Assembly: GCA_017433375.1 (NCBI GenBank)
Contig: JAFRHG010000003.1
Location: 62,001 to 126,000 of the forward strand
DNA from: Bacillota bacterium
GTDB lineage: Bacteria; Bacillota; Clostridia; Peptostreptococcales; Anaerovoracaceae
Length of the DNA stretch: 64,000 nt
Direction: 5' to 3'
Below, piece after piece: positions 12 to 63,284 of the stretch (its first letter is position 1; each line of letters begins with the position of its first letter). Position numbers and translations under genes: made by a program. The notes below the pieces were generated by a model, which was not told where the DNA came from, searched no databases, and saw only the letters and a list, made by a program, of their open reading frames with translations.

Positions 12-1280
12 ATGAAGGTAATGGTAGTCGGCGGCGGAGGCCGTGAACATGCGATTATCCGCAAGCTGAAGGAGAACCCCAACATCGAAATCATCTACGC
101 CCTGCCGGGAAACGGCGGCATCGCGGCGGACGCGGAGTGCGTGCCTATCGGCGCCAAGGATATTGACGCCATCGCCGCTTTCGGCCGGGAGAAGGCCATC
201 GACTTCGCCGTGGTGGCTCCCGACGATCCCCTGGCCATGGGCTGCGTTGATGCCCTGAACGGGGAAGGTATCCGCTGCTTCGGACCGACGAAGGACGCGG
301 CCATCATCGAGGCCAGCAAGGTCTTCGCCAAAAACCTGATGAAGAAGTACGGCATCCCTACGGCAGCCTACGAGGTCTTCACCGACATGGAGGAGGCCCT
401 GGCCTATCTGGAGAAGGCGCCTGTTCCCACGGTGATCAAAGCCGACGGGCTGGCCCTGGGCAAGGGCGTGATCATCGCCCAGACCAGGGAGGAGGCACGC
501 CAGGCCGTGCGCTCCATGATGGAGGAAAAGAAGTTCGGCGCCAGCGGCGATCAGATCGTCATTGAGGAGTTCCTCACCGGACCGGAAGTCTCCGTGCTTT
601 CCTTTACCGACGGCAAAACCATCGTGCCCATGGTATCCTCCCAGGACCACAAGCGCGCCCAGGACGGGGACCAGGGACTGAACACCGGCGGCATGGGCGT
701 GGTGGCGCCCAATCCCTGGTACACGCCCCAGATGGCGGACCGGTGCATGAAGGAGATCTTCCGCCCCACGGTGGAGGCCATGAACGCCGAAGGCAGGACC
801 TTCCGCGGATGCCTCTATTTCGGCCTTATGATCACGGAAAACGGGCCGAAGGTCATCGAATACAACTGCCGCTTCGGCGATCCGGAAACCCAGGTGGTGT
901 TGCCTTTGCTCGAGAGCGATCTGCTCACCATCATGGAGGCGACCGCCGACGGGCGTCTGGATGAGGTGGAGGTGAAATTCTCCGACCGGTATTCCTGCTG
1001 TGTGGTCATGGCCTCCGGCGGATACCCGGTCAGTTACGAGAAGGGATTCCCCCTGGATATCGGGCCTATGGATGAGGGCGTGGAGGTCTTCATCGCCGGC
1101 GCGAAGCTGGAGGAGGGGAGACTGGTCACCTCCGGCGGACGGGTCCTGGGCGTGACGGCCATGGCGGACAGCCTGGAGGGCGCTATACAAAAGGCCTACG
1201 CCAATGTGGAAAAGATTCACTTTGAGAAGGCGTTTTACCGGCACGACATCGGCCGGAAGGCGCTGGAGCATATCCGATAA
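12..1280 (+). CDS. purD: Phosphoribosylamine--glycine ligase
   Basis: Catalyses the ATP-dependent joining of glycine to 5-phosphoribosylamine, step two of purine synthesis, in the cytoplasm. The 422-residue product has the usual family length. It starts with the GGGGREHAI motif of the N-terminal domain, has ATP-grasp features (VIKADGLALGKG near residue 143) and the conserved EYNCRFGDPETQ segment near 285. The ATG follows AGGAG at 1-5 with a six-base gap. It is 37 bp upstream of purL and is probably the downstream part of a pur operon whose earlier genes lie outside the window. A copy of the GCAAAGGCAA decamer is read on the minus strand at 900-909, where the coding strand uses two TTG leucine codons unlike the surrounding CTG. 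Confidence 0.97.
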   Translation: MKVMVVGGGGREHAIIRKLKENPNIEIIYALPGNGGIAADAECVPIGAKDIDAIAAFGREKAIDFAVVAPDDPLAMGCVDALNGEGIRCFGPTKDAAIIEASKVFAKNLMKKYGIPTAAYEVFTDMEEALAYLEKAPVPTVIKADGLALGKGVIIAQTREEARQAVRSMMEEKKFGASGDQIVIEEFLTGPEVSVLSFTDGKTIVPMVSSQDHKRAQDGDQGLNTGGMGVVAPNPWYTPQMADRCMKEIFRPTVEAMNAEGRTFRGCLYFGLMITENGPKVIEYNCRFGDPETQVVLPLLESDLLTIMEATADGRLDEVEVKFSDRYSCCVVMASGGYPVSYEKGFPLDIGPMDEGVEVFIAGAKLEEGRLVTSGGRVLGVTAMADSLEGAIQKAYANVEKIHFEKAFYRHDIGRKALEHIR

Positions 1281-1317
1281 TCGCGGCATTAGGGTTGAGC
1301 CGGAAAGGAAAATAGCG

Positions 1318-4300
1318 ATGGTATTCAGAGTTTATGTGGAGAAGAAGGAAGCCGCGGCGGCCGAGGCAAAGGCAATGCTGTCGGAGATCAGAACGTTCCT
1401 GGGCATCGACAGCGTCCGCAATGTGCGGATCCTGAACCGGTACGATGTGGAGGACGTGGATCCCGAACTGTTTGACGCCTGCATCGGAAGCGTGTTTTCC
1501 GAGCCCCAGGTGGATAAGGTCTATGCCAGCCTGGGGGAGGCCGGCGTGGAGGGGCTTTCCCTCTTTGCCGTGGAGGCGCTGCCCGGGCAGTTTGACCAGC
1601 GGGCGGATTCCGCGGCCCAGTGCATCCAGATCATCTCCCAGAAGGAGCGGCCCCTGGTGGCCTACGCCAAGATCTACGCCCTGGAGGGTGAGATCAGCGG
1701 GGAGGAACTGGAGGCGGTCAAGAGCCACGTGATCAATCCTGTGGAGACCCGGGAAGCGGGCCTTGAAGAAGCGGACACCCTGAAGGTGGTCTACGACAGG
1801 CCTGCCGATGTGGCCGTGATCGAAGGCTTCAATACCCTGGAGGAGGACGGTCTCAAGGCTATGATCGACGATCTGGGCCTGGCCATGGACCTGGGGGACA
1901 TCCGTGTCTGTCAGGAATACTTCCGTCAGGAGAACCGTCCGCCCACGCTGACGGAGATCCGCATGATCGACACCTACTGGTCCGACCACTGCCGGCACAC
2001 CACCTTTAATACGGTGATCGACCACGTTGATTTCGAGGACGATGTGCTGCGGAAGGCCTACGAGGATTATCTGGATACCCGGAAGAAGCTGAACCGGACC
2101 AAGCCGGTGACCCTGATGGATATCGGCACCATTGCGGCCAAGGCCCTGAAGGCGGAAGGCCGGATGGAAGGTCTGGACGAATCGGAGGAGATCAACGCCT
2201 GCACGGTGAAGATCAAAGCCCGTATCGACGGAAAGGATGAAGACTGGCTCCTCCTGTTCAAGAACGAGACCCACAACCATCCCACGGAGATCGAACCCTT
2301 CGGCGGCGCGGCCACCTGCATCGGCGGCGCCATCCGTGATCCTCTGTCGGGAAGGGCGTATGTCTATTCCGCCATGCGCATCACCGGCGCGGCGGATCCC
2401 CTGAAACCTCTGGAAGAGACTATGGAAGGCAAGCTGCCCCAGCGGAGGATCGTCACCTCGGCGGCGGACGGCTATTCTTCCTACGGCAACCAGATCGGCG
2501 TGACCACGGGCCTGGTGGAGGAAATCTATCACGACGGCTTCGCGGCCAAGCACATGGAACTGGGAGCGGTGATCGGCGCCGCTCCGGCGGAGAACGTGGT
2601 GCGGGAGAAACCCGCTCCCGGGGACCTGGTCATCCTTCTCGGCGGACGGACCGGACGGGACGGCTGCGGCGGAGCGACGGGCTCCTCCAAGTCCCACGAT
2701 GTGTCCTCCCTGGAGAGCTGCGGGGCCGAGGTGCAAAAGGGCAACGCCCCCGAAGAGAGAAAGCTGCAGCGGCTGTTCCGCAATGGGGAAGCTTCCCGGA
2801 TGATCCGGCGGTGCAACGACTTCGGCGCCGGCGGCGTGTCTGTTGCCATCGGCGAGCTGGCCGACGGGCTGGACATCAATCTGGATGTGGTGCCCAGAAA
2901 GTACGAGGGACTGGACGGCACGGAGCTGGCCATCAGCGAATCTCAGGAACGGATGGCTGTGGTCATCGCCCCGGAAAACCGGGACCGGTTCCTTGAACTG
3001 GCGGCGGAGGAGAACCTGGAGGCTACGGTGGTAGCCAGGGTGACGGAGGATCCCCGGCTGGTCATGCACTGGCGGGGAAAGACCATCGTGGACATCGCCC
3101 GCAGTTTCCTGGATTCCAACGGTGCGGACAAGCACATCACCGTGGAGGCCCCGGCGGCGGCTATGCCCAGGAAGGAGACTCCGGCCGGATTCACCGAGGG
3201 TATGAAGGCCCTGGCGGCGGATCTGAACGTCTGCTCCCGGCAGGGGCTGTCCGAGAAATTCGACTCCACCATCGGCGCGGGCACGGTGCTCATGCCCTTC
3301 GGCGGACGGTTCCAGAAGACCCCGCCTCAGGTGATGGCCCAGAAGATCTCTGTGGAGGACAGCACGTCGTCCACGGTTTCCCTCATGTCCTGGGGGTATA
3401 ATCCGTACATTTCCGAGGCCAGCCCCTATCACGGCGCCTATCTGGCCGTGGTGGATTCCCTCTGCCGCCTGATCGCGGCCGGCGGAGGATCGGAGGCCGT
3501 CTATCTCAGCTTCCAGGAGTACTTCGAGAAGCTGGGAAGGGAGCCGAAGCGGTGGGGCAAACCCTTCGCCGCGCTGCTGGGCGCCTTCCGTGCCCAGATG
3601 GGACTGGGGGCAGCGGCCATCGGCGGCAAGGATTCCATGAGCGGATCCTTTGAGGACATTCACGTTCCGCCGACCCTGGTTTCCTTCGCTGTCACCTGCG
3701 AGGAGGCGGAGAGGATCATTTCTCCGGAGTTCAAGGGCGCCGGTCATCCTGTCTGGCTCATCGAGCCGGCCGTCAACGGGGAAGGGCTTCCCGATACGGA
3801 TTCCCTGAAGGGGATCTTTGAAGTAATAAAGAAAATGAACGGGGAAAAGGCGGTCCTTTCCGCCTGGACACCGGGATTCGGCGGTATCGCCGAGGGCATC
3901 GTGAAGATGGGCCTGGGCAACGGTATCGGATTTGCCTTTGCAGAGGAAGACGGGGCCGGCCTGTCCAGCCTGTTCGGATGGAACTACGGCGCATTCCTCG
4001 TGGAGACAGAGGCGGATATGGACGGGGCAGCCCTGGACGGGGAAATTGCCTCCGCCGGCGGAAACTGCCGGCTCCTGGGACAGACGGCGGAGGACGGTAT
4101 GATCTCCCGCGGAGAAGAGTCGGTCAGCCTGGAGGAGCTGCAGAGGATCTCCGAAGGCGTGCTGGAGTCCGTCTACCCCCTGAACATCGAAACACAGAAA
4201 CAGGAGCTGCCCGATCTTCGCTGGGACCGTGAGGAACATGGCGCGGCCTGTCCGGCACCGGCTGTGCGGACGGCCAGACCGAAGGTGCTGATCCCGGCCT

Positions 4301-5073: not shown

Positions 5074-6951
5074 ACCGGCATCGTCCGGCGGAAGGCCGGC
5101 GCTGAAATCCAGCGCGCCCATGTCGGTGATGCCTTTCCCCGTATGGGGATGGAAGTGGGCATAGACCACATCGGTACAGAAGGCCGCGATCAGGACCACG
5201 GTGATGGTCCGCAGCACCTTGTGGTTGATCCTCATGAACCAGCTGTCCAGAAGGGGAGCCAGGAAGTAGACGACCATGGAGCCGAGAGCGGCAAAGGCAA
5301 AGAGCCCTTCGGCACAGATGCGGCCGTCAAGATTGAGGAAATAGCCGCTGTAGTCCCACCAGCGCATGCCGGTGGATTTCTCCAGGAAGTAGGAAGTGAA
5401 GTATTCCACGGCGTCGCTGACAAGGGCGATAGAGAGGAACTCCAGCACCGGCTTGGTCCGCAGCTTGCAGACGACCACCAGGATCATGGTGCCGCCGAAA
5501 CCGTAGATGGGTATCCAGGGGCCGTAGAGGGTGCCCCGGTTGACGAACTCGCCGGTCTGGATGACGAAGAGGATGACCTCCCAGATCCAGCCTATAAAGG
5601 CGAAGAGGAAGAACATCAGCGCCAGGTTCCAGGCGGTATAGCAGCGGATGAAGCTTGTCTGGACCCGGTGCACCAGGGCCTCGCTGCGGTAGCGGGGATC
5701 CAGGCGGTCGGGATAGGCCAGCCCGTGGATGACATCCACAGCGCCGGACAGATGGTACTCCCGGTTCTGGTGATTCTGGTATTCTTCTTTTCCCTCCAGG
5801 CTGCCGACCCACATGCCCAGGTTCTCGGCGAAGAACTTCTTCACGCCGGTCAGAACGAAGGGATGCTCGTCCAGATACTCCTGTTCTTTTTCAATATCCT
5901 TATAGATGGAACGGAGGCGATATTCCTCCGCGTGTTCATAGAGGTATGTGTCATCCAGCATCTCCGTTCCGGGGATGCTGTTTTCAATGGCCAGCTTCCG
6001 CACATAGGCATAGTACTCGGACACGGATGCCATCTTATAGGGCCCGTAGAGAAAAATGTTCAGGAATCCGCCGGTGAGGAATCCCAGGGCCAGCCATCCG
6101 ATGAAAGTGAGTTCCAGTTTGAAGCATTCGATCTTGTGGCCGTCCATCATCCGCCGGGAAAGGGTGAGGGCCTCCATGGGCCGGATGTCCGGGTTCTCCG
6201 CGACGATAAAGGGCACGAGGTAATAGGAATACCGCTTGATGACGGCGCCGGCGATGGTCAGGAACCAGAGGAAGTAGAAGAAGTCCATGGCGACGATGCA
6301 CAGGGACGCCCGTACCCACCGCTGGGCGTGCTTCAGGTGAAAGATATGATAGAAGGGGACCTTGTCATAGGTCCTTGCCTCCAGGAACATTCTGCGCATC
6401 ATGACCCGGTAGGGATCCCGTATGCCGACAAACACCAGGGTAAAGATCAGAATGGCCAGGATCACGAAGATGATGAGGCTGACCTCCGGGGATTTGGTGA
6501 TGGTGAAGATGGACTGGAGGACTTTGACGTAGAGGTGCCCCGAGGTAACGGTGTTGACGAGGGCAGCCAGAACGCCCTGGGTATGGCCCAGGACCGAGCC
6601 GCCGGAAGTGGAGAACTGCTCCTCCAGCTGATCGGAAAGATCGATGCCTTCCACCACATTGCCGCTAAGGATGTCCGCCAGAACTTCCGCGCCCGGGTCT
6701 TCAAAGTGGTCGCTGATTCCCATGGGCTGGACGGTGGGAAGGAGGCTCCGGTTTTCGGTGATATGCATGAACAGAGCCTCTTCGGAGAATTCAGCTCCCA
6801 GAAGAATCCCGATCATGATCAGGATCAGAAGCAGGCCGTAGTGCTTTTTCAAGGTTTTTCGGCCGCTTCGCCGGAACTCCCGTATCTCATCGAACCTTAA
6901 AATGAGATTCTCTTCTTTTGCTGTGGCCATGTCCTCCGGTGCCTTGTCCAT
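5050..6951 (-). CDS. Membrane protein: DUF975-like region plus putative ABC-transporter type IV (CmpB) domain
   Basis: The 633-residue product is an integral membrane protein of unknown transport substrate. A short cytoplasmic N-terminus is followed by a hydrophobic segment (YGLLLILIMIGILLG, about 40-54) and a membrane region resembling DUF975 proteins to about residue 320. A charged linker follows, then a second membrane block from about 430 with the FIGWIWEVI and NRGTLYGPWIPIYG signatures of the putative ABC-transporter type IV family. No ATPase gene is adjacent, so an actual ABC transporter role is unproven. The start has AAAGGA six bases upstream and a consensus-like promoter (separate entry). 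Its 3' end overlaps purL by 24 bp in convergent orientation. Confidence 0.75.
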   Translation of the reverse strand: MDKAPEDMATAKEENLILRFDEIREFRRSGRKTLKKHYGLLLILIMIGILLGAEFSEEALFMHITENRSLLPTVQPMGISDHFEDPGAEVLADILSGNVVEGIDLSDQLEEQFSTSGGSVLGHTQGVLAALVNTVTSGHLYVKVLQSIFTITKSPEVSLIIFVILAILIFTLVFVGIRDPYRVMMRRMFLEARTYDKVPFYHIFHLKHAQRWVRASLCIVAMDFFYFLWFLTIAGAVIKRYSYYLVPFIVAENPDIRPMEALTLSRRMMDGHKIECFKLELTFIGWLALGFLTGGFLNIFLYGPYKMASVSEYYAYVRKLAIENSIPGTEMLDDTYLYEHAEEYRLRSIYKDIEKEQEYLDEHPFVLTGVKKFFAENLGMWVGSLEGKEEYQNHQNREYHLSGAVDVIHGLAYPDRLDPRYRSEALVHRVQTSFIRCYTAWNLALMFFLFAFIGWIWEVILFVIQTGEFVNRGTLYGPWIPIYGFGGTMILVVVCKLRTKPVLEFLSIALVSDAVEYFTSYFLEKSTGMRWWDYSGYFLNLDGRICAEGLFAFAALGSMVVYFLAPLLDSWFMRINHKVLRTITVVLIAAFCTDVVYAHFHPHTGKGITDMGALDFSAGLPPDDAGLPKEFHR

Positions 6952-7060: not shown

Positions 7061-7089
7061 TTGCATTGCCTTTGCGGATATGGTAGTAT
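7061..7089 (+). promoter_or_regulatory. Sigma-A-type promoter for rpsO
   Basis: TTGCAT (7061-7066) and TAGTAT (7084-7089) are 17 bases apart, about 90 bases before the rpsO start codon. The spacer contains an intergenic copy of the TTGCCTTTGC decamer (7066-7075), which touches the -35 box. Confidence 0.6.
7066..7075 (-). repeat. Intergenic copy of the dispersed GCAAAGGCAA decamer
   Basis: One of 19 exact copies in the window and one of only two outside genes. It lies in the promoter spacer of rpsO, so it cannot be explained by protein sequence or codon choice. Confidence 0.8.
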
Positions 7090-10909: not shown

Positions 10910-11989
10910 ATGAACGTGTTTATCGCTATCATGCTGGTTTTTGCTGCCGTCGGTTTCACCGACAAAGCCCTCGGCGGCAGATGGGGGCTCTCCGAGCAGT
11001 TTGACCGGGGTCTCTATACCATGGGAACCATGGCCATCCCCATCATCAGCATCTGTGCCGTGGGGACGGAGTTCATCCGCCGCCACGCTGACCAGGTGAT
11101 GGCGCTGTCGGACAATCTGTTTTTTGACCCTTCCATGATCATCGGGGCCGTACTGGCCCCGGACATGGGAGGGTATTTCATTTGCCGGGAGATCACATCC
11201 GATCCGAAGATGCTGGCCATGAGCGGCGTTGTCCTGGGCACCCTCCTGGGACAGGCGATCACCTTCCAGCTTCCCGTCTTCTCCCAGACCGTGGACAAAA
11301 AAGACCATCCGGCCATGTTCCGGGGATTCATCGTGGGCATCATCATGATCCCTGCCGGGCTCATCGTGGCGGAACTGATGATCCGCATGCCTCTGGTGCT
11401 GTTTCTGAAACAGCTGGTTCCCATCCTGGCTCTGTGCCTGGTGATCGCGGCGGGGCTTTACCGGGCGCCTGCGGGGACGGCCCGGGTATTCGCCGTCTTT
11501 GCCCGGATCGTCAACTGGCTCTTCTATCTGATGTTCGCGGTCACGGTCATCGGCCTGTTCATCCCGTCCCTGGCCTACGCCAGCCTGGATTCGGTGCAGG
11601 AAGCGGTGCTCATCGTCTTCAAATCCGCCGTCATTATCGCCGGCTCCCTGGTCATGTCGGAGCTGATCCTGAAGTTCTTCCGAAAGCAGATCAACGCCGT
11701 CGCCGGACGGATGGGGATCAACCAGGTCTCCGTGGTGTCCCTGCTCATGACCTGCGCCACATCCCTGGCGGTCATGCCCATGTTTCCCCGGATGGACGAG
11801 AAGGGCAAGCAGGTGGTTTCCGCCTTTTCCCTGAGCGGGTCTTTTGTCATCGGCGGCTCCCTTGCCTTTGTATCCAACGTCACCGACGGTTATACGGTCA
11901 CCGTCTTCGTCGTCTCCAAGCTGGTCTGCGGCATCCTTAGCGCCTGGGTGATCCATCTGCTCTGGCGCAAAGGCAATTCCGGCGCCTAA
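10910..11989 (+). CDS. eutH: EutH-family ethanolamine transporter
   Basis: The 359-residue protein is hydrophobic throughout and matches EutH, a membrane protein for ethanolamine uptake. Recognisable family segments are the start MNVFIAIMLVFAAVGFTDK, the LAPDMGGYFICREI stretch and GTLLGQAITFQLPVF. It begins 24 bases after pnp with only a weak ribosome-binding site, so it may be read through from pnp. No ammonia-lyase or microcompartment genes are near, so it may feed another pathway or a eut operon elsewhere. The gene ends four bases before the riboswitch promoter. It carries one exact decamer (11967-11976) and one nine-base match (11872-11880). Confidence 0.85.
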   Translation: MNVFIAIMLVFAAVGFTDKALGGRWGLSEQFDRGLYTMGTMAIPIISICAVGTEFIRRHADQVMALSDNLFFDPSMIIGAVLAPDMGGYFICREITSDPKMLAMSGVVLGTLLGQAITFQLPVFSQTVDKKDHPAMFRGFIVGIIMIPAGLIVAELMIRMPLVLFLKQLVPILALCLVIAAGLYRAPAGTARVFAVFARIVNWLFYLMFAVTVIGLFIPSLAYASLDSVQEAVLIVFKSAVIIAGSLVMSELILKFFRKQINAVAGRMGINQVSVVSLLMTCATSLAVMPMFPRMDEKGKQVVSAFSLSGSFVIGGSLAFVSNVTDGYTVTVFVVSKLVCGILSAWVIHLLWRKGNSGA

Positions 11990-13929: not shown

Positions 13930-13956
13930 GGCCTCCGCAAAAGCAATTAATGAGAA

Positions 13957-14009: not shown

Positions 14010-15536
14010 TCACTTCACCAGTGACTGGCCGGTCATTTCCGGCGGGATGGGCAGGCCCATGAGATCCAGCAGGGTGGGTGACAGATCGCAAAGCCGGCCG
14101 CCGTCCTTCAGCTGGCGGGGCTCCCTGGCGATATGAACCAGGGGCACCGGATTCAGGGAGTGGGCCGTCATGACGTTGCCCTCTTCATCGATCATCTCGT
14201 CGGCATTGCCGTGGTCAGCGGTGAGCAGGATCTGTCCGTCCTGAGCCAGGACCGCGTCCACGATCTTCGGTACACAGCTGTCCAGGGTCTCGATCGCCTT
14301 TACCGCGGCGTCCATAACGCCCGTGTGGCCGACCATGTCCGCGTTGGCGAAGTTGAGGATGATCACGTCGTATTTTTTTGAGCCGATGGCCTCCAGGACC
14401 TTCTCCGTGACCTCCGGCGCGCTCATCTGGGGCTGCAGATCGTAGGTGGCGACCTTGGGGGAGGGGACCAGGATCCGGTCCTCGCCCTCGCTGGGTTCTT
14501 CCACGCCGCCGTTGAAGAAGAAGGTGACGTGGGCGTATTTTTCCGTTTCCGCGATCCGCAGCTGCTTCAGGCCCAGAGAGGAAAGGTAGACGCCCAGGGT
14601 GTTGGCCGGCGTCTCCGGCGGATAGGCCAGGGTGACGTTAGGCATGGTGGCGTCGTACTGGGTCATGCAGATGTACCGGAGGTTGCTGACGGTCTTTTTG
14701 CGGGGGAAACCGTCGAAGTCCGGGTCCACGAAGGCCCGGGTAATCTCCCTCGCCCGGTCGGGACGGAAGTTGAACATGATCATGGCGTCTCCGTCATCCA
14801 CGGGAATGGCGCCGTCCACGATGGTGGGCAGAACGAACTCGTCGCTCTCGTCCCGCTTATAGGCTTCCTCCACGGCAGCCTGTCCGGTGGCAGCGTGGAG
14901 GCCGTCGGCACCGATCATGGCGTCATAGGCCTTTTCCAGCCGTTCCCACCGCTTGTCTCTGTCCATGGCGTAGTAGCGCCCGGAAACCACGCCGATGGTG
15001 CCCAGTCCCGTTTCCTTCATGTGTTCGCAGAGCTGGTCGATATAGGTGACGGCGCAGCGGGGCGGCACGTCCCGTCCGTCCAGGAAGCAGTGCACGCAGA
15101 CCTTTTCCACGCCTTCCCGCTTCGCCATGTCGATGAGGGCGAAGAGGTGGGTGATGTGGCTGTGCACGCCGCCGTCGGAGAGAAGTCCGAGAAGGTGCAG
15201 GGTGGAGTGGTTGGCTTTGGCGTGGGCCATGGCGGAGAGGAGAGCTTCGTTCCGGAAGAAGGACCCGTCCTCAATGGCCCGGGTGATCATGGTCAGATCC
15301 TGATAGACGATCCGGCCGGCGCCGATGTTCAGGTGGCCGACTTCCGAATTGCCCATCTGTCCGTCGGGCAGGCCCACGTCCATGCCGCAGGCCTTCAGGG
15401 TGGTGTTGGGATAGGACGCGAAGATCCTGTCCAGGGCAGGAGTGTCGGCGGCCTTGATGGCGTTGCCTTTGCTTTCCGAGCGGATCCCGAATCCATCCAG
15501 GATCATGAGCATAGTGGGTCGATGAGAATCCTTCAT
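14010..15536 (-). CDS. gpmI: 2,3-bisphosphoglycerate-independent phosphoglycerate mutase
   Basis: Interconverts 3- and 2-phosphoglycerate in glycolysis using two manganese ions. The 508-residue length is typical. The N-terminal MLILDGFG-type metal motif appears as MILDGFGIR, the phosphoserine loop is GQMGNSEVGH, and the C-terminal metal sites LTADHGNADEM and MVGHTG are present. The start ATG has GGAGG ten bases upstream. It is a single gene, divergent from folP across 63 bp and convergent with cysE. The minus-strand codons at 15472-15463 contain the GCAAAGGCAA decamer. Confidence 0.97.
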   Translation of the reverse strand: MKDSHRPTMLMILDGFGIRSESKGNAIKAADTPALDRIFASYPNTTLKACGMDVGLPDGQMGNSEVGHLNIGAGRIVYQDLTMITRAIEDGSFFRNEALLSAMAHAKANHSTLHLLGLLSDGGVHSHITHLFALIDMAKREGVEKVCVHCFLDGRDVPPRCAVTYIDQLCEHMKETGLGTIGVVSGRYYAMDRDKRWERLEKAYDAMIGADGLHAATGQAAVEEAYKRDESDEFVLPTIVDGAIPVDDGDAMIMFNFRPDRAREITRAFVDPDFDGFPRKKTVSNLRYICMTQYDATMPNVTLAYPPETPANTLGVYLSSLGLKQLRIAETEKYAHVTFFFNGGVEEPSEGEDRILVPSPKVATYDLQPQMSAPEVTEKVLEAIGSKKYDVIILNFANADMVGHTGVMDAAVKAIETLDSCVPKIVDAVLAQDGQILLTADHGNADEMIDEEGNVMTAHSLNPVPLVHIAREPRQLKDGGRLCDLSPTLLDLMGLPIPPEMTGQSLVK

Positions 15537-15599: not shown

Positions 15600-16460
15600 A
15601 TGAGTCTGGAACAGCTGTTAAGAGTTAAGAATAACCGGATCATCACCTTTGATCATATGGAGATGATGGGGATCGTCAACGTGACCCCGGATTCCTTCTA
15701 TTCCGGGTCCCGCATGGAGACGGAGGAGATGGCTTACGCAAAGGCAATGGAGCACCTTGAGGAAGGCGCCCTGTTCCTCGATGTGGGGGGAGAATCCACC
15801 CGGCCCGGATCGGCGCCGGTGACGGAAGAAGAGGAGATCCGCCGAATCTGTCCCGTGATCCAAAGGATCCGGAAGGCGGCGCCGGAGGCGGTGATCTCCG
15901 CGGACACCTACCGGGCGGGAACCGCCCAGGCTGCTCTCGAGGCGGGAGCAGATATGATCAACGATATCTCCGGTCTGACCTTTGAGCCGGAACTGGCTCG
16001 GGTCATCGCCCATGCGGGGGCCGGCGTGGTGATCATGCATACCGGCGGACGGCCCCGGACTATGCAGCAGAATCCCCGCTACGTGGATGTGGTGGAGGAG
16101 GTCCGCGCCTTTCTCGTCAACCAGATTTCCTTTGCCGTAGATTCCGGCATCGGCATCGATCAGATCATGATCGATGTAGGCATCGGCTTCGGCAAGACGG
16201 CGGAGCATAATCTGGAGCTTCTGCACCGTGTGGACCGCTTTGATGATCTTGGCTGTCCCCACCTTCTTGCCGCATCCAGGAAGTCTTTTCTGGGTAAGCT
16301 GCTGGGCAGGGAGAACGCGGAGGACAGGCTGCCGGGAACCCTGGCGGTGACGTCCTGGGGTGCGCTGCACGGCATGGCGGCCGCCCGTGTCCACGACGTG
16401 AAGGAAAACCTTGATGCCGCCCGTACAGCGGAGGCGCTGATGGAAGGGAGCCGGCAATGA
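15600..16460 (+). CDS. folP: Dihydropteroate synthase
   Basis: Joins p-aminobenzoate to dihydropterin pyrophosphate in folate synthesis. The 286-residue TIM-barrel protein has the signatures MGIVNVTPDSFYSGS, LDVGGESTRPGS, MINDISG and AASRKSFLGKL. The usual MHM-x-G-x-P loop reads MHTGGRPRTMQ, a mild variant. AGGAGG (15589-15594) precedes the ATG. Its stop overlaps the addA start by four bases (ATGA), so the two are translationally coupled. No other folate gene is adjacent. A decamer lies at 15738-15747. Confidence 0.95.
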   Translation: MSLEQLLRVKNNRIITFDHMEMMGIVNVTPDSFYSGSRMETEEMAYAKAMEHLEEGALFLDVGGESTRPGSAPVTEEEEIRRICPVIQRIRKAAPEAVISADTYRAGTAQAALEAGADMINDISGLTFEPELARVIAHAGAGVVIMHTGGRPRTMQQNPRYVDVVEEVRAFLVNQISFAVDSGIGIDQIMIDVGIGFGKTAEHNLELLHRVDRFDDLGCPHLLAASRKSFLGKLLGRENAEDRLPGTLAVTSWGALHGMAAARVHDVKENLDAARTAEALMEGSRQ

Positions 16461-19400
16461 ACTGGACCCAGGCGCAGCAGCAGACCATTGATGAGCGGGG
16501 AGTGAACATCCTGGTTTCCGCCGCGGCGGGATCGGGAAAAACCACGGTGCTGATCGAACGGATCAAACAGCTGGTGCTCCGCGACCGGGTCGATATCGAC
16601 CGGTTCCTGATCACCACCTTTACCCGGGCCGCCGCTTCGGAGATGAAGGAGAAGCTGGAGGATGCCATCGGCAAGGCGCTGGAGAACGCGGAGACCGAGG
16701 AGGACCGGGAATATCTGCAGCGGCAGGCAGCGCTCCTTCCCCAGGCCATGATCGGCACCTTTCACAGTTTTGCCACCACTATCATCCGGGAATACTTTTT
16801 CCTGACGGAACTGCAGCCGGGTTTTTCCATCGGCGATGAGGTCCGCGGCAACATCCTCAAGAGGGAAAGTGTGGACGAACTGTTCGAGGTCCGTTTCGAG
16901 GATGACCGGGAACGGTTCATGGACTTTCTGCGCACCTACAGCGGGGACCGAAGCGATGACCGGCTGAAGGAGAACATCCTGGGTATCCATAAGGAACTGT
17001 GCAGCATTCCCGATTACTGGGACTGGGCCAGGGAAACCACGGATAAGCTGGGCAGCGCATCCCCTGTGCGGGAACTGAAACTGGACCGCTTCCTGCTGCA
17101 GGAGGCGGTGGCCATCATGCGCAAGGCCGCCCGGGAGTACGGCCGGGCGGCGAAGCTCCTGGACGATCCGAAGACCGCCGGCCTCTTCGCCAAGGCCAGT
17201 CAGGACGCGGACATGATCCGTGCTCTGGCGGAGGAAGCGGCACAGAGGGCGGATGATCCCGATGCCCTGTCCCGTCTGCTTGAACTGAGCCAGTTGCTGT
17301 CCGGCCTGAGCCTGAACCGGATGTCGGCGGGCAAGGAGGAAAAGGACGCCTGGGAGCGGGTCAAGAAACAGGTGACCAGCTGGCGCGGCAAGGGAAAGAA
17401 AAGCCTGGATAAGATCAGGCAGCGGTATACCGCATCCGCATCGGAGGAATGGGACGGGATACTCCGGGGCCTGGAAGAGGATACCCGGTACTACCTTGAT
17501 CTCGTCCGGGGGATGGAGGAAATCTATAACGAAAAGAAACAGGCGGAGAACATCATCGACTTCGACGACGTGCTCCACTATGCCCTCCGCATCCTGAAGG
17601 ATGATAAGGCCGCCGCCGACTACCGGGGACGGTTCGAGTTTATCTTCATCGACGAGTACCAGGACAGCAATCTGCTTCAGGAGAGGATCGTAGAGCGGAT
17701 CTGCCGGGAGAACAATCTCTTCATGGTCGGTGACGTGAAGCAGAGCATCTATAAGTTCCGCCTGGCCGAGCCGGAGATCTTCCGCGACCGGTACCGCCGG
17801 TACCGGGAAGGGAAGGACGAGCAGTCCATCAAGATCGATCTGAACAACAACTTCCGCAGCAAGAAGACCATCCGCGACGGGGTCAACGAAATCTTCACCG
17901 CCGTCATGGAGGGCTACGATGAGGATGCCCGCCTCTACGGCGATGACGAAAATGAGCACCGGGGAGAACCGGTCTGCCTGCACATTCTCGACCGGAGCGA
18001 ATCGGAGAGGACGGAGCCGGAACTGGTGGCGGAAATCATCCGTCAGCAGGTGGGAAAAACCATCTACGATAAGGACGGCAATCCCCGCCCTCTGGAATAC
18101 GGAGATATCGCTGTGCTCTCCCGGGGACGGAATGACATCGCTGCCCTGGAGCGGTACCTGAACAATGAAGGCATCCCGGCCTACGGGCAGACCGATGGCG
18201 GTTACTATGAGACCGTGGAGATAGAAGTCTTCCTCAATCTCCTCCGGGTCATCAGCAACCTGCGTCAGGACGTCCCCCTGATCTCGGTGATGAGCGCCGT
18301 GTTTTTTGATTTCCATCCGGCGGAACTGGCCGCCGTCAGGATCGCCTTTCCCCGGGGAAGCTACTGCCAGGCGGTGATGAACTACGCCGAAAAGGGGGCG
18401 GATGAAAACCTGCGGGAGAAGATCCGGGGCATGCTGGAGCAGATCGCCCTGTGGCGGCAGATCAGCTGGACCGTTCCCCTGGACGAGCTGATCCGGATGC
18501 TGATGCACGAAACGGGATACTACGATTACTGCAGCAGCCTTCCCGTAGGCCGGCAGAGAATCTCCAATCTGCGCCTGCTCATGGACCGGGCCGCAGCCTT
18601 CGAGGAGACAGGGTACACGGGGCTCCACGGCTTCCTGACCTATGTGGAGGCAATGAAGCGCACCCGGCAGAAGGTCTCCGAGGCGTCCGTCGTCGGGGAA
18701 GGGGAAAAGGTGGTCCGGGTGATGACCGTGCACAAGAGCAAGGGGCTGGAGTTCCCCATGGTCATCCTGACCGGGGCGGGCCGCTCCGTCAACGGATCAA
18801 GAGCCGGGAAGCAGCCGGCCGTGCACAAGCAGTTCGCCCTGGGTCTTCCCCAGGTGGACCGGGAGATGCACTGGTCGGGAAAGACCATACTCCAGCGGGC
18901 CATCGCCGGGAAGAAGACCCAGGAGGATGTGGAAGAGGAGATCCGGATCCTCTACGTGGCCCTGACCAGGCCGAAGGATGCCCTGCACATCGTCGGCAGC
19001 GTATCATCCATGGACAAGCTGGATGTGGAATGGGATACGGGATCCTTCCTGGAGATGGTCTACGGCACGCTCCTGGAAATGGCTGTTGCAGATCCTTCTG
19101 CTGCCCGGGTCATCATCCACGGCGGAGACGAGGAGGCGGCCGGGGAGGCGCAAAGGCAATTCCGCCCCGGGAAGACGACCCTGCTGGATGCCGCCGACGA
19201 AGAGCCGGAAGACATCAGCCTGGCGGAGGAAGTGGACCGGAGGCTGTCCTACCGCTATCCCTATGAGGAGCAGATGGCCGTCCGTCCCAAGTATTCGGTG
19301 ACGGAACTGAACCGGACCGTCGAAGAGGCGGGAATGCAGCCGCCGGCGATACCCCCTATACGCGACCTGGTTGCGGAGGAAGAAGGGGAAGAGCTGACCG

Positions 19401-23817: not shown

Positions 23818-24969
23818 ATGGCAGATAAGAGAGATTATTATGAGGTCCTTGGGCTCAAGAAGGGTGCAAGCGAGGATGAGATCAAGAAGTCTTTTCGCAA
23901 GCTGGCGATGAAGTATCATCCGGACAAAAACCCGGGAGACAAGGAAGCGGAGGAAAAATTCAAGGAGATCAACGAGGCCTATGCGGTGCTGTCCGATCCG
24001 GAGCAGAAGCAGAAGTACGATCAGTTCGGCCATGCCGGCGTGGATCCCAACAGTTTCGCCGGCGGCGGTTTCGGCGGTTTCGGCGGCTTTGAGGATATCT
24101 TCGACATGTTCAGCGGCGCCTTTGGCGGCGGCGGTGCTTTCGGCGGCGCATTCGGCGGCCAGGCACGGCGCAGCAACGCGCCCCGCAAAGGCAACGATAT
24201 CCAGAAGTCCATGACCATCGATTTCACCGAGGCTGCCTTCGGCTGCAAGAAGCAGATCAAGCTGACCAAGTACGTCAAGTGCAAGACCTGCGGCGGCACG
24301 GGGGCGAAGCCGGGCACATCGAAGAAGACCTGCCCCAACTGCGGCGGCACCGGCGAGGTCCGCACCCAGCAGAGGACGCCTCTGGGCACGTTCCAGAGCG
24401 TATCCCCATGCCCGAACTGCAACGGCACGGGCCAGATCAACGAGTCGCCCTGCACGGACTGCAACGGCACGGGACGGGTGCGTGACACGGTCAAGCTCAC
24501 GGTCAACATTCCCGCCGGCGTGGACAACGATTCCGTCATTCCCATCCGGGGACAGGGGGAGCCGGGCATCAACGGCGGCCCCGACGGGGATCTGTATATC
24601 GTCATCAATGTGCGGCCCCACAAGATCTTCGAGCGGCGGGGACAGGATCTGTGGCTGGAGATCCCCATCTCTTTCGACCAGGCGGCCCTGGGCGACGACA
24701 TCGTCGTCCCGACCCTGGAGGAAAAGGTTTCCTACAAGGTGCCCGCCGGCACCCAGCCGGGAACCGTCTTCCGCCTGAAGGGCAAGGGGGTCAAGAGCGT
24801 ACGCTCCAACCGGAAGGGAGACCTCTACGTGAAGGTCGTCCTGGAGGTGCCCACCAAGCTCAACAGCAAGCAGAAGAAGGCCGTCAAGGCCATGGGAGAA
24901 GCCGTCACCGACGATTGCTACCAGAAGAAGAGCAGATTCCTGAAAGCCATTAAGGAATTCTTCAGCTAA
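23818..24969 (+). CDS. dnaJ: Chaperone protein DnaJ (Hsp40)
   Basis: Co-chaperone that stimulates DnaK and binds unfolded protein. The 383 residues contain a J domain with HPD at YHPDKNPGD, a Gly/Phe-rich linker, and a zinc domain with four CxxCxGxG repeats ([32 protein letters not shown]), followed by the C-terminal substrate-binding domains. The ribosome-binding site is poor compared with the rest of the operon. In related bacteria prmA and rsmE follow directly; here the restriction island is inserted between them. A decamer lies at 24185-24194. Confidence 0.97.
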
Positions 24970-24991
24970 CAGTCTGATCCGTTTGACGGTC

Positions 24992-25044: not shown

Positions 25045-25049
25045 ATTTT

Positions 25050-25078: not shown

Positions 25079-25080
25079 TC

Positions 25081-25112: not shown

Positions 25113-25123
25113 AAGAATAGGAA

Positions 25124-28604: not shown

Positions 28605-29159
28605 ATGGGAAATATAGATAGAGAAAGAAATGTAACTGTCGCAACAGATCTGGATGGGAGTCGCTTTGTATTGATTAGCGATGTCAGGTTCAAAGGGAAG
28701 CGAGAAGATTGGAAGAATGTCGAAGCGTTTCTAAAGGAGTATATAGGTGAGTTCTATGAGATAGAGGAAACTGCGGAGAAGATCTTTATCTCATCAGACT
28801 TTCCTGATGAGTTTGCAAATTCCGAATATCGGATCCGATTAAAGGGAGCTGTGTCAAAAGCAAAAGCCAATGCTTCCCAAGCTGTTCCAGAGCTGATTCA
28901 AATAGCCTCAAATAGAAGGTTCTCTGAAAACAGAAAAACAAAGCATCGTTCAGATGCAAAACTGGGATGGTATAGGTATGATGTTCGTTTTGCCCTTCCG
29001 GTCTATAACGACAGAACAGGCAATGTAGAGAGATATAATATATACAAGGCAGTAATGCTTGTTCGACATGCGGAGGATGAAAAGAAATACCTGTATGATT
29101 TTCTGGAGATAAAAAAAGAAACGAGCAGCCCGCTTGAGTCCGAAGACTGTACGGTGTAA
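28605..29159 (+). CDS. Unknown protein in restriction island, possible phage polyvalent-protein-type domain
   Basis: A 184-residue soluble protein not firmly recognised. It has no signal peptide or membrane segment. The first 90 residues are mixed and charged; the C-terminal part (GWYRYDVRFALPVYNDRTGN ... KKYLYDFLEIKKE) has alternating beta-strand patterns ending in YDFLEIKKE, which recalls small domains in phage MuF and polyvalent proteins. That likeness is weak and is inference. The gene is preceded by the AGATTTGTAGGG repeat also found before both hsdS genes, so it may have been assembled with them. Confidence 0.6.
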   Translation: MGNIDRERNVTVATDLDGSRFVLISDVRFKGKREDWKNVEAFLKEYIGEFYEIEETAEKIFISSDFPDEFANSEYRIRLKGAVSKAKANASQAVPELIQIASNRRFSENRKTKHRSDAKLGWYRYDVRFALPVYNDRTGNVERYNIYKAVMLVRHAEDEKKYLYDFLEIKKETSSPLESEDCTV

Positions 29160-36615: not shown

Positions 36616-36640
36616 AACAAGATCGGAGGAAGTTTAGAAT

Positions 36641-45251: not shown

Positions 45252-46391
45252 ATGAGAATCAGGATCAACAAACCGGAGCAGCAGAAAGAAAGCCAGTGGT
45301 CCGGCGGCAAAACGTGGGAACTGGGCATCTTTCCCGAGTCCGCGTCCTATCTGGACCGGGATTTTGTCTGGCGGCTGAGCACGGCCTCCTCAGACCGGGA
45401 GGAGTCCTCCTTTTCCAAGCTGCAGGGATATGACCGCATCCTCATGGTCCTGGAAGGGGATGTGGTACTGGCCCACGGCGATGAACGGTCCGTCCATCTG
45501 GGAGAGATGGAGCAGGACCGCTTTGACGGCGGTGTCAAGACCCGCTGTTTCGGCAAGCTGACCAGGGATTATAACCTGATCATGGCCCAGGGCTGCGAGG
45601 GAAGCCTCCGCACAGCGGAAGTCGCTTCCGAAGCGGAAAAGGTGACATCCGAGGCGCCCCTGTCCGATTACCGCTCCTTCGGCGTCTATGTGCTGGAGGG
45701 ATATGTGGTGATGAACTGCGGGGAGCGGAGCGAGATGCTTCATCCCGGTGAGCAGGCCATGGTGGATCTGGCTCCGGGAGAGGATGAGCATCTGTCCCTG
45801 ATGGGCGAGGGGCGGTGCGTCCTGGCGGAAGTTGCCTTTGCGGTGGAAGAGGAGGCGGGAGAGCCTGCCGCAGCTGAGGAAGCACCCGGGAATACCGAAT
45901 CGGGCGGATCCTTTTTTTCCGAATACGGAACCTGCATGCGGCTGCTTATGCGGAACAACCGGTGGTTCCGGGTCTTTCGCCGGGAGGGGAATGACGGGAT
46001 CTACTACGATAAGGCCCTGACCGACGCCCTCAGGATCCTGGAACGCCGGTACATCACCACCATCGTCTGGGCCATCGGCGCCTTTCTCTGCTTCGTGCCC
46101 CTGGTGCTGAACGGGAACCCCTTCGGATGTATTCTGGCAGCGGCGATCTTTTCCGTGGTTCACATTCTGCTGATCGCGCCCAGGATCTACTGGCATTTCC
46201 TGCCCCATCCCATCAGCGCTCACATGAAGCCGGTGGATGAGCTGAACGCCTTCGAACGGCTCCACCATGAGGAGACCATCGCGGAGAATCCCCAGCTGGA
46301 CCGCCTTATGCGCAAGTACAAATCCGATGATGAAAACTACTTTGCCGACGAGGATTCCATCCTGTACCGGCTGGTCAGGAAAGATAAATGA
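45252..46391 (+). CDS. HutD-like cupin domain fused to a membrane domain
   Basis: The first 200 residues resemble HutD (SQWSGGKTWELGIFPESASY and FSKLQGYDRILMVLEG, split for length), a cupin protein of histidine-degradation loci whose role is unclear. The rest is different: an acidic Ala/Glu linker (about 203-220), a charged region, two hydrophobic segments (TIVWAIGAFLCFVPLVLNG and FGCILAAAIFSVVHILLIA, about 272-310) and a cytoplasmic tail. The 379-residue fusion is longer than plain HutD by about 180 residues. No hut gene is nearby. It overlaps the next gene by four bases. Confidence 0.75.
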   Translation: MRIRINKPEQQKESQWSGGKTWELGIFPESASYLDRDFVWRLSTASSDREESSFSKLQGYDRILMVLEGDVVLAHGDERSVHLGEMEQDRFDGGVKTRCFGKLTRDYNLIMAQGCEGSLRTAEVASEAEKVTSEAPLSDYRSFGVYVLEGYVVMNCGERSEMLHPGEQAMVDLAPGEDEHLSLMGEGRCVLAEVAFAVEEEAGEPAAAEEAPGNTESGGSFFSEYGTCMRLLMRNNRWFRVFRREGNDGIYYDKALTDALRILERRYITTIVWAIGAFLCFVPLVLNGNPFGCILAAAIFSVVHILLIAPRIYWHFLPHPISAHMKPVDELNAFERLHHEETIAENPQLDRLMRKYKSDDENYFADEDSILYRLVRKDK

Positions 46392-50437: not shown

Positions 50438-50701
50438 ATGGAAATCTATAAAGTCGATCTGGCCGGGGTCACCGGCATTGCACAGCTCCATGACCGGCTG
50501 GCGGAGGCGTTGCCTTTGCCCGAGTGGTACGGCAGGAACCTGGACGCCCTGAACGATGCTCTGTCGGAGATGCAGGGGGAGATCATGATCCAGGGCATCG
50601 AAGAAGCCGATGATGACATGACGGACTACCTGGACCGCTTCCAGGCGGTCTGTATCGACGCGGACCGGGATAACCCGCTTCTGCGCATCATGTTCCGCTG
50701 A
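50438..50701 (+). CDS. Barstar-family ribonuclease inhibitor
   Basis: An 87-residue acidic cytoplasmic protein that should bind and block the adjacent barnase-like enzyme until it is exported. LPEWYGRNLDALNDALSE is the barstar signature containing the Asp that fills the barnase active site. The ribosome-binding site GAGAGGAAA lies inside the end of the RNase gene, so the two are coupled. The TTGCCTTTGC decamer falls within this gene (50510-50519), coding LPLP with rare TTG codons. Confidence 0.92.
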   Translation: MEIYKVDLAGVTGIAQLHDRLAEALPLPEWYGRNLDALNDALSEMQGEIMIQGIEEADDDMTDYLDRFQAVCIDADRDNPLLRIMFR

Positions 50702-51887: not shown

Positions 51888-51984
51888 GGGTCAATACAGT
51901 ACTGGTTTGCGGCATTGACGCTGGTGAACCGGGTCAAGTAGTCTGAAAATTGCAAAAGCAACGCCGGCTCTTTCCCGGTCAGAA

Positions 51985-51994
51985 TTGCCTTTGC
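51985..51994 (-). repeat. Second intergenic copy of the GCAAAGGCAA decamer
   Basis: TTGCCTTTGC on the + strand within the 350-base gap between two divergent transcription units. A near match GCAAAAGCAA lies just upstream at 51953. I see no gene in 51900-52120. Confidence 0.75.
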
Positions 51995-56526: not shown

Positions 56527-57677
56527 AACGGATTTCCATCTTAGGAAGCACGGGATCCATTGGAGCCCAGGGCCTTGAGCTCATCGAACACAACCCGGAA
56601 CAGCTGAAGGCGGTCGCTCTGTCCTGCAGCCGGAGAACGGATCTTCTGCGGGAGCAGATCGTTGCCTTTGCACCGGAAGCGGTCTCGCTGGCCCGGGAAG
56701 AGGACGCAAAGGCAATTCAGGCGGAGTTTCCCCGTCTGGATGTCTACTGGGGAGAGGAAGGGCTGAACACCCTGGCATCCATGGAGGACGCCGATATGGT
56801 CCTCAACTCCCTGATGGGCATGCGGGGCCTGGCCCCGACCCTGGCCGCCATTGACGCCGGCAAAGACATTGCCTTTGCCAATAAGGAGACCCTGGTGGCC
56901 GGCGGACAGCTCGTCATGAACCGGGTACGGGAAAAGGGCGTGAATCTCCTTCCCGTGGACAGCGAACACAGCGCCATATTCCAGTGCCTCCAGGGCAGCG
57001 GAGACAACCCAGTCCGGCGGATCCTGCTCACCGCTTCCGGCGGGCCTTTCCGCGGATTTACGGCTGAACAGCTGCGTGCCGTCACCCTGGCGGACGCCCT
57101 GCGCCATCCCAACTGGACCATGGGGGCGAAGATCACCATCGATTCCGCCACCATGATGAACAAGGGGCTGGAGATCATCGAGGCCAGATGGCTCTTCGAT
57201 GTGCCTCTGGAGAAGATCAAAGTCATCGTCCACCCCCAGAGCGTGCTTCATTCCGCGGTGGAATACGAGGACGGCTCCGTGGTGGGCCAGATGGGCAATC
57301 CGGATATGAAGGTGCCCATCGCTTACGCTTTTTCCTGGCCTGAGCGTTTACCCATGACCGGGGATATGCGCCTTCTCGATCTCATCGGATTCGGAACGCT
57401 GACCTTTGAGGAACCCGACGATGAGGTGTTCCGGACCATGAACATCGCCCGGGAAGCCTGCCGGCGGGGCGGCACCTGGCCCGTGTGCATGAACGCGGCC
57501 AACGAGTTGCTGGTGGATGCCTTCCTCCACGAAAAGATCGAATTCTGGCGCATACAGGAGCTGCTGGAGGAGGTCTTGGAAGGCCATCGGCCTGTGGAAA
57601 GCCCGGATCTTGAGGACATCCTGGAAGCGGACCGGACAGCCAGGGAGGAAACGGCTTCCCTGATAGATAAACCATAA
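56523..57677 (+). CDS. dxr: 1-deoxy-D-xylulose 5-phosphate reductoisomerase
   Basis: Second step of the MEP isoprenoid pathway, NADPH-dependent. The 384 residues contain the N-terminal nucleotide motif ISILGSTGSIGAQGLEL, the metal-site segment VDSEHSAIFQCL, and ATMMNKGLEIIEARWLF. The start overlaps cdsA. Three exact decamers are clustered here (56662-56671, 56706-56715, 56869-56878), the densest group in the window. Confidence 0.97.
   Translation: MKRISILGSTGSIGAQGLELIEHNPEQLKAVALSCSRRTDLLREQIVAFAPEAVSLAREEDAKAIQAEFPRLDVYWGEEGLNTLASMEDADMVLNSLMGMRGLAPTLAAIDAGKDIAFANKETLVAGGQLVMNRVREKGVNLLPVDSEHSAIFQCLQGSGDNPVRRILLTASGGPFRGFTAEQLRAVTLADALRHPNWTMGAKITIDSATMMNKGLEIIEARWLFDVPLEKIKVIVHPQSVLHSAVEYEDGSVVGQMGNPDMKVPIAYAFSWPERLPMTGDMRLLDLIGFGTLTFEEPDDEVFRTMNIAREACRRGGTWPVCMNAANELLVDAFLHEKIEFWRIQELLEEVLEGHRPVESPDLEDILEADRTAREETASLIDKP
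56662..56878. repeat. Cluster of three GCAAAGGCAA decamers inside dxr
   Basis: Copies at 56662-56671 (minus), 56706-56715 (plus) and 56869-56878 (minus). They encode AFA, AKA and AFA respectively in one gene, using GCA and GCC/TTT codons; the first two are only 34 bases apart in opposite orientation. Confidence 0.8.
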
Positions 57678-62800: not shown

Positions 62801-63284
62801 CCGGATCGCCTACTACAAGGTCTACCATCCCCTGGAGTTCTATGCCGTCTGGTTTACGGCCAAGGTGGAGAATTTCGACGAAAAGACGATCCTCCAGGGC
62901 CAGAGGGCCATCGAGCGCAGGCTGGAGGAGATCGCCAAAGCGGGGACGGAAGTCTCCAAGAAGGAAGAGGCGGATGTCCCTGTGCTGGAGGTGGCCTGTG
63001 AGATGTGCGCCAGGGGCTTTGCCTTTGCGCCGGCCCGCCTGGGACGCTCCGACGCCACCAGATTCACCGTGGACGAGGGGAAGGTCCGCCTGCCCTTTGT
63101 GGCCATCAACGGGGTGGGGGAGAACGCGGCCCGTTCCCTGGCTGAAGGATACCGCCGGCAGCCCTACCTGACGGTGGAGGATGTGGGCGCCCGGGGCAGG
63201 GTCAACAAGGCGGCCCTGGAGGAGCTTCGGGCCCACGGCGTTCTGGAGGGACTTCCCGAAACGGCGCAGATCAGTTTATTTTAG
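59814..63284 (+). CDS. polC: DNA polymerase III alpha subunit, PolC type, lacking the exonuclease insert
   Basis: Replicative polymerase. The order is an N-terminal domain (1-90), a Gly/Asn/Ser linker, an OB fold (about 140-235), PHP (VELHAHTKMSAMDG at 249; TDHGVVQAFPDASHAA at 284), polymerase with CPKC and CPVC zinc pairs near 635-660 and the metal-binding PDIDLNFAGEYQ near 685, and a C-terminal tail ending ISLF. At 1156 residues it is about 280 shorter than typical PolC. The 3'-5' exonuclease that normally splits the PHP domain is missing: YGCEGYLLDD (306-315) runs after only 18 residues into HIIIFARNQQGLRNLY (334). The reading frame is intact. A decamer is at 63019-63028. Confidence 0.95.
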   Translation: MRSILQESIDFSQYRSCSPEQLQADVKGASLSKDSRVLSLALSLNMILQPEEQEQFRSRILRQIPGIRDVEIFLDYRDPINKRELDERRAAALAESEKKNGNGNGSSGSNGFRSRNGFSRKRKYTPAEGNRIMGGPISGEPIPIGQVNSESGKVVIDGELFRLSSITTRNDSKLAQLYVTDKRTSIPVKSFVVNEKWEEIENLLKPGDGVRIRGQAQWDPRDNCVTIMADALEKVDREERMDTWPEKRVELHAHTKMSAMDGMNDVVRMVETAEKWGHPAVAVTDHGVVQAFPDASHAAKEIKILYGCEGYLLDDRGLIGEDGTIDYRGRGTNHIIIFARNQQGLRNLYRLVSLSHLDYFYKKPRIPRSVLDNYREGLILGSACEAGEVFRAVLNDAPEEELEFLAGYYDYLEIQPLVNNSFLIDAGRVKDEEELRELNRKIVALGERYGKPVVATCDAHYFDAEEALYRRIIMAGQGFKDVEGDEGLFFRTTDEMMEEFAYLGEEKAYEVVIKNTNLIADMMEPMMPVPAGKFPPKIEGAEDYLKKACEERAARLYGSPLPDEIRQRLDRELNSIIDNGYAVMYRSAEMLVDKSLADGYLVGSRGSVGSSFAATMSGITEVNPLPPHYLCPKCKNLEWGDLQEYDCGVDMPDKVCPVCGTPYLKEGFNIPFETFLGFEANKEPDIDLNFAGEYQGTAQKYVEEIFGAKNVYKAGTIAAVKDKTAYGFVAKYFEERGISVNRVEMDRLTSCCAGVRRTSGQHPGGIIIVPEGHEIYEFCPVQHPANDVSSDVVTTHFDYHSIDQNLLKLDILGHDAPSMIRQLQDMTGVDPLTVPIKDPRVMSIFNGTDGLDIKDQDYKFTHGSYGIPEFGTPFVRQMLDDVKPTTFEELIRISGFSHGTDVWIGNARDLIVDKTATMKEAIATRDDIMNYLRKKGLPDSDAFTIMEKVRKGKGLTEEQEDLMVEKGVPDWYIESCKKIQYMFPRAHAVAYVIMSARIAYYKVYHPLEFYAVWFTAKVENFDEKTILQGQRAIERRLEEIAKAGTEVSKKEEADVPVLEVACEMCARGFAFAPARLGRSDATRFTVDEGKVRLPFVAINGVGENAARSLAEGYRRQPYLTVEDVGARGRVNKAALEELRAHGVLEGLPETAQISLF

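Follow-up and report, generated by a model that had tools for sequence, protein, structure and literature searches.

A dispersed decamer with clade-specific dialects in a genus of gut Clostridia as a candidate DNA uptake tag

The window and its copies of the decamer

We analyzed a 64,000-nucleotide stretch from a metagenome-assembled genome (MAG) of an Anaerovoracaceae bacterium for the dispersed decamer GCAAAGGCAA. The whole stretch (C14:62001-126000) is referred to as the window, and the MAG (G000) comprises 1,953,975 bases in 38 contigs with 89% completeness; relatives are designated by G numbers. An earlier reading made from the letters of the window alone (the sequence-only reading) had counted 19 exact copies, and all 19 were found at the coordinates and on the strands that it gave, compared with a mean of 0.16 and a maximum of 1 in 100 dinucleotide shuffles. 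It had also counted five nine-base matches. This number was correct, as the 9-mer CAAAGGCAA occurs 24 times (19 + 5), but two of the positions were approximately 10 bases off; the 10-base sites given as 11872 and 35512 begin at 11862 and 35501.

From the left end of the window, the first copy (900..909, minus strand; kept in G024) lies in a gene that we take to be purD-like, followed by copies at 1366..1375 (plus) and 3932..3941 (minus) in a presumably purL-like gene. The copy at 5291..5300 (plus) lies within a gene for a 633-amino-acid protein, on the opposite strand, and is kept in G024 and G005. Further copies were located at the 3′ end of a EutH-family gene (11967..11976, plus), in genes that we take to be gpmI-like (15463..15472, minus; kept in G034) and folP-like (15738..15747, plus), in addA (16457-19894; copy at 19150..19159, plus), and in a presumably dnaJ-like gene (24185..24194, plus). 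To the right of these, copies lie in a DNA methylase gene (PF01555; 45117..45126, plus), a HutD-family gene (45832..45841, minus), and an 87-amino-acid open reading frame (ORF; 50510..50519, minus). Three copies (56662..56671, minus; 56706..56715, plus; 56869..56878, minus) share a gene that we assume to be dxr-like, and the last one (63019..63028, minus) is in a long gene resembling that of DNA polymerase III alpha, which we take to be PolC. Two copies, at 7066..7075 (minus; kept in G034) and 51985..51994 (minus), are intergenic per the gene calls, in agreement with the two intergenic copies noted earlier, and an inverted A-variant copy lies 33 bases away from the latter. The copy at 31086..31095 (plus) was also called intergenic, yet it lies inside the tyrosine-integrase ORF of an acquired island, which was overlooked by the gene caller, and the protein sequence may force this copy.

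Two variant forms were also present. NCAAAGGCAA was found at 11862..11871 (minus; kept in G024), at 33602..33611, 35374..35383, and 35501..35510 in the island, and at 43301..43310 (all plus). The A variant, NCAAAAGCAA, was found on the plus strand at 13937..13946, 28854..28863, 35878..35887, and 51952..51961, the second and third of these being in the island. This A+T-rich island (24991-36620) is situated between the dnaJ-like and prmA-like genes and encodes, by Pfam, a Fic protein, HsdM, HsdS, and the tyrosine integrase. After the integrase, ORFs that we take by eye to be a second HsdS-like and then an HsdR-like gene follow. The position of the integrase between two specificity genes is suggestive of a type I restriction locus of the shuffling kind.

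Over-representation and anatomy of the decamer

In the whole MAG, GCAAAGGCAA occurred 517 times (260 and 257 on the two strands), corresponding to one copy per 3.8 kb or 265 per Mb, whereas the reversed-word control occurred 9 times. Own-genome statistics were obtained from 462,147 of the 1,953,975 bases, namely 20 stretches and the window. The stretches were partly picked from contigs already listed for the word, or for pilus or ComEC matches; the sample contained 120 exact copies against 122 predicted by the genome-wide density. An order-4 Markov model predicted 2.2 copies. When all 10-mers present at least 6 times were ranked (220,037 distinct 10-mers overall), GCAAAGGCAA was first in both count and z-score. 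In the window, its z-score was 34, compared with 11 for the next unrelated 10-mer (order-4 Markov model, words with at least 6 copies).

Such an excess could arise indirectly, either from codon or amino-acid usage or through a mobile repeat. One frame was favored per strand, as gene-relative frames contained 32, 18, and 2 copies on the same strand and 6, 30, and 4 on the opposite strand, so that the favored frames held 32 and 30 of the 92 coding copies. However, all six frames were used, as had been seen by eye, and intergenic DNA carries the word as well. Furthermore, 100 synonymous-codon shuffles of the 365 called genes abolished the excess, leaving 3.5 ± 1.9 coding copies (maximum 9) compared with the 92 observed. 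In addition, GCAAAGGCAA ranked first by z-score among 10-mers in coding sequences with at least 10 copies under a codon-aware null model of the own sample. The shuffles and the ranking thus ruled out a codon or protein artefact. The gene caller was home-made and overlooked at least one gene, the island integrase. As for a mobile repeat, within 25 bases on each side of the copies no column exceeded 0.15 bit except position 11, which was C or T in 97 of 120 copies (0.30 bit). The word is therefore not part of a longer repeat, and repeats of the repetitive extragenic palindrome or miniature inverted-repeat type were ruled out, as conserved sequence beyond the word was not found. We therefore regard both forms of this explanation as very improbable. 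The sequence-only reading had named genome-wide counts close to the codon-aware expectation, or many 10-mers equally enriched in all frames, as outcomes that would speak against it; the genome-wide count, the 10-mer ranking, and the synonymous shuffles gave the opposite. These results, together with the occurrence of the word on both strands and in every frame, supported its proposal that selection or drive acts at the DNA level.

The local form of the word is GCAAARGCAAY. Analysis of single-base variants indicated that positions 3 and 4 are strict, with changes at background level, and that positions 1 and 2 are softer, while position 6 tolerates A (GCAAAAGCAA, 29 vs. 0.5 expected in the own sample). 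The Pasteurellaceae uptake signal sequence (USS) has flanking A/T tracts; these are absent here, and the two words are unrelated. As stated in the sequence-only reading, the word is not palindromic and shows no strand bias. By the GC skew of each stretch, 62 copies were leading and 58 lagging (95% confidence interval 0.42–0.61; 120 copies), and the 92 coding copies were divided 52/40 by gene strand. In this, the word differs from HIP1, which is a palindromic octamer, and from the FtsK-orienting polar sequences (KOPS), which are strongly strand-polar. KOPS, HIP1, and methylation targets would not be expected to combine strand symmetry with dialects, both of which are features of uptake sequences.

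The 120 sample copies comprised 92 coding, 27 non-coding, and 1 at an edge. Non-coding copies were approximately two-fold enriched (27 of 120 in 10.8% of the sequence), which is an upper value because the gene caller misses some genes. Similarly, the degenerate form NCAAARGCAA reached 11.1 per 10 kb in intergenic DNA compared with 3.8–6.0 in three gene classes. This intergenic excess, the random-like spread over the sampled contigs, and the DNA methylase genes in the window would suit a dispersed site bound by a protein that organizes the chromosome, regulates genes, or modifies DNA (of the HIP1, nucleoid, or methylase type). Nevertheless, a non-palindromic word with no strand bias fits such a site poorly. 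Its copy number and the dialects described below would be unusual for these sites, and restriction-modification targets are normally not enriched; hence, we consider this explanation unlikely.

Dialects of the word across the genus

Across the overlap that was compared, contig C23 of G006, a genome in the same genus as the window, matched DBYH01000019.1 (Firmicutes bacterium UBA1191) without a difference. On the basis of this match, the window's genus is the GTDB genus UBA1191. In two papers (PMC8035907, PMC8957277), this genus (Peptostreptococcales, Anaerovoracaceae) carries the names Candidatus Copromorpha and Candidatus Colimonas, and the members named there come from gut or faecal metagenomes.

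Order-wide counts covered 392 genomes of at least 80% completeness, 26 of them in the genus (own included) and 366 outside. The latter contained at most 62 copies of GCAAAGGCAA per genome, or at most ~25 per Mb, the other dialects not being counted there; this is near background, compared with 265 per Mb in the own genome. The genus set consisted of 49 genomes, own included. GCAAARGCAA occurred 93–632 times in 24 of these, with 632 in the own genome, and the smallest excess over the reversed control was 93 vs. 31 (G012). G001, G009, G010, G065, and G069 contained merely 11–27 copies of this form, and CAAARGCTGG occurred there 525, 529, 634, 1021, and 478 times, respectively, compared with 1–63 in the remaining 44 genomes and 7 in the own genome. 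In many of the GCAAARGCAA-rich genomes, GCAAARGCAGC was frequent as well (up to 140 copies), though not in the own genome (16). A weaker word, TGCAAAGGGC, was seen in G021 (96 copies), G022 (57), and G068 (56), where the controls gave 0–1; in G036, it occurred 58 times against a control of 6, with uneven strands (17/41).

These counts indicated one core, GCAAARGC, whose 3′ end differs by clade (AAY, AR, or TGG), whereas the TGCAAAGGGC genomes have a variant of the core itself. Between clades, AAY and TGG nearly exclude each other. In a sample of TGG genomes (141,545 bases), A3, A4, C8, and G10 were equally strict, and A at position 6 was again tolerated (10 vs. 0.19), as it was in a sample of the AR dialect (37 vs. 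2.2). A strong word was absent in 17 of the 49 genomes, G036 included, and an unbiased word scan of 15 of these 17 (10–106 kb each) gave no outstanding word. Weak hints of the core were obtained in G033 (GCAAAGGCTA, 6 vs. 0.15), G029 (CGCAAAGGCT, 4 vs. 0.06), and G032 (GCAAAGGCC, 4 vs. 0.31), so that further dialects are possible. In the sequence scanned from G068 and from G011, an overlapping locus was counted twice. G068 (L240, L241) also contained another kind of word, the palindrome-related AAGTGCACT, with 5 copies in 36 kb.

The dialects were then compared with a PolC tree of 48 rows. The dialect labels needed 8 changes on this tree, compared with 22.1 for shuffled labels (0 of 200 shuffles as low), and the four TGG rows formed a single clade with a support of 98. 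By label, AAY needed 2 changes, AR 5, and the unlabelled rest 7. The tree left out five of the 49 genomes lacking enough PolC (G001, G027, G032, G064, and G070). G005 was labelled AR, though its counts and place fit AAY, and G068 was labelled 'none', as were three outgroup rows; the row UBA1191 duplicates G006 under another label. Dropped and mislabelled rows tend to inflate the change counts. Thus, with the exception of G026 and G029, the dialects largely follow descent.

Turnover of copies was analyzed within 20 kb of the window, where 7.2, 9.0, and 13.2 kb could be aligned for three relatives. Six of 16 aligned copies were kept as a motif compared with 1.9 expected from 10-mer identity (P = 0.007), although the copies are not independent, as the same own site may count for more than one relative. 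The kept copies numbered 2 of 4 in G034, 3 of 4 in G024, and 1 of 8 in G005. G024 had seven copies in the aligned columns, four of which are absent from the own genome. From these alignments, copies come and go, and seem to be retained more than under neutrality.

A candidate uptake tag and the machinery of the genus

We estimate a probability of roughly 60% that the word is an independently evolved uptake or self-recognition tag. This interpretation is favored because the word is strand-symmetric, non-palindromic, and 10–11 bp long, occurs once per 2–4 kb, and has clade dialects, of which AAY and TGG are nearly exclusive. Among the options that the sequence-only reading had left open (uptake, recombination or repair, methylation, or a binding site), an uptake sequence fits best, given the absence of replication-strand bias and the occurrence in relatives of dialects that share one core. 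In this model, the genus would have its own self-recognition tag, acting like the uptake sequences of Neisseriaceae and Pasteurellaceae, with GCAAARGCAAY as the local dialect. Tagged DNA would be preferred by a DNA receptor on the cell surface, belonging to a type IV pilus or ComG-type competence machine, and transformation by such DNA would copy tags into the genome (drive). A shift of receptor specificity in a clade would then alter the 3′ half of the tag, giving rise to the dialects. The effect of the tag on uptake, the receptor itself, and the spread of tags through transformation are all inferences. The chances appear evenly balanced that this is a third, independently evolved uptake system and the first in a Gram-positive (monoderm) lineage, with dialects splitting an uncultured gut genus into recombination pools. 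The receptor would then not be recognizable as a pilin of the ComP type, and might represent a new kind of protein for DNA recognition.

The closest parallel is the DNA uptake sequence (DUS) of Neisseriaceae, whose dialects are congruent with phylogeny according to the accessible part of Frye et al. (PMC3630211). Both words occur in hundreds of copies, are 10–12 bp long, and consist of a core with clade dialects following phylogeny. Unlike the DUS, the present word has an unrelated sequence, belongs to Bacillota, shows no clear enrichment of terminator-type close pairs, and lacks a strong form in some relatives, and a receptor for it was not found. As excerpted from PMC5031613, the USS is also a short dispersed word of hundreds to thousands of copies, and the Neisseriaceae and Pasteurellaceae tags are convergent. 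Most naturally competent organisms differ, their uptake being sequence-independent in the part of PMC12040237 available to us. In Veillonella parvula, a screen reported in PMC5397411 turned up no word of at least 10 bp at 100 or more copies. Among the matches listed for uptake sequences, Chi, UBA1191, and Anaerovoracaceae competence, a scope that leaves out most subscription journals, such a word was unreported in Clostridia or a Gram-positive lineage, and among the matches listed for GCAAAGGCAA as a term, none concerned uptake-type words.

We also analyzed the machinery available in the genus. ComEC was found in 40 of the 49 genomes, and T2SSF (PilC/ComGB/Tad) domains in 47, 46 of them above the cut-off. 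ComEC and ComGB/GspF-type genes are shared with monoderm competence pili of the ComG type, e.g., that of Streptococcus pneumoniae. The own pilus locus (L114) reads, by the names we presume, pilA-B-T-C-D-M-N-O. A separate operon (L115:3199-7913) encodes a transglutaminase-like lipoprotein, ComGB/GspF, four small membrane proteins, and PilT. One of the small proteins is a DUF4860 protein, and another carries, ahead of its membrane helix, a Glu found without exception in 13 of 13 rows. In a survey of contigs fetched for T2SSF matches, PilT with a similar neighborhood was found in 24 genus genomes, with and without the strong tag. To judge from its gene content, the ComGB-PilT operon looks like an unusual ComG-type pilus. 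By eye, no PilB was seen next to this operon in the own genome.

The main rival is a Chi-like signal, at which AddAB would pause or switch and load RecA, with different Chi words evolved in different clades. The word, like Chi of AddAB/RecBCD, is dispersed and over-represented, and its density of one per 3.8 kb is within the range of Escherichia coli Chi. Moreover, addA is in the window. No adjacent addB was seen by eye; the own AddB-like gene is located elsewhere (G000:C20), and AddB-like genes were found in 47 of 49 genomes, all below the curated cut-off. However, known Chi sites are oriented, whereas the 62/58 split shows no strand bias, and a core-plus-dialect word of 10–11 bp exceeds the known Chi words of Firmicutes, which have 5–8 bp. 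AddB also occurs in genomes without the strong tag. Chi differs between bacterial species, according to the section seen of PMC3630211. Given this variation among lineages and the presence of AddAB, a Chi-like role is possible, but we judge it improbable. Neither ComEC and pilus genes nor AddAB discriminates between the two interpretations, because both are widespread in the genus.

Several results weigh against an uptake tag. ComEC, pilus genes, and AddB are also carried by relatives without the strong tag, and therefore the machinery does not predict the tag. No comEA adjoining comEC was seen by eye, and no family search was made for comEA, comFA, or dprA. A role as ComP-like receptors was unsupported for the small proteins (four in the own genome) encoded in the ComGB-PilT operon, because the soluble parts of 23 such proteins from 7 loci were acidic (pI 4.1–5.2), in contrast to a ComP-type receptor. 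Even spacing was not observed for the 223 NCAAARGCAA sites of the own sample (coefficient of variation 0.94 vs. 1.00 ± 0.06 for random placement), and terminator-type pairing was not clearly enriched, with 12 pairs in any orientation within 80 bases compared with 8.7 expected. Inverted tag pairs in terminators are typical of the DUS and USS, but not defining. Depletion of NCAAARGCAA in large secreted-protein genes was likewise absent (5.95 vs. 3.79 per 10 kb; 14 genes). On the PolC tree, AR did not form one clade, as its 5 changes show, and G026 (AR) and G029 were placed, with JAQXJR, outside Anaerovorax, so that their PolC or their placement is odd. G005 keeps just 1 of its 8 aligned copies. 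Lastly, the single full copy in the island, previously taken as a sign of selection on DNA, held for the exact word (1 vs. 4.0 expected) but not for NCAAARGCAA, which showed no depletion (6 vs. 4.9 expected); thus, the island argument is weak.

If the word is indeed an uptake tag, uncultured gut commensals would be naturally transformable with a preference for kin DNA, which could open a possible route to DNA delivery into them. If such tags arose a third time, in gut Clostridia and with dialects, the reasons for which uptake sequences evolve could also be tested independently, and the dialect list makes the receptor search directly testable. Concerning the machinery in the own genome, comEC carries two overlapping inverted tags, TTGCCTTTGCAAAGGCAA, at L116:5517-5534. 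At another locus (L118:3685-6633), a minor pilin (L118:3685-4224) with sub-cut-off ComGE/ComGF matches is followed by a 799-amino-acid protein, possibly a pilus-tip adhesin, whose N-terminus is pilin-like and whose C-terminal part is long.

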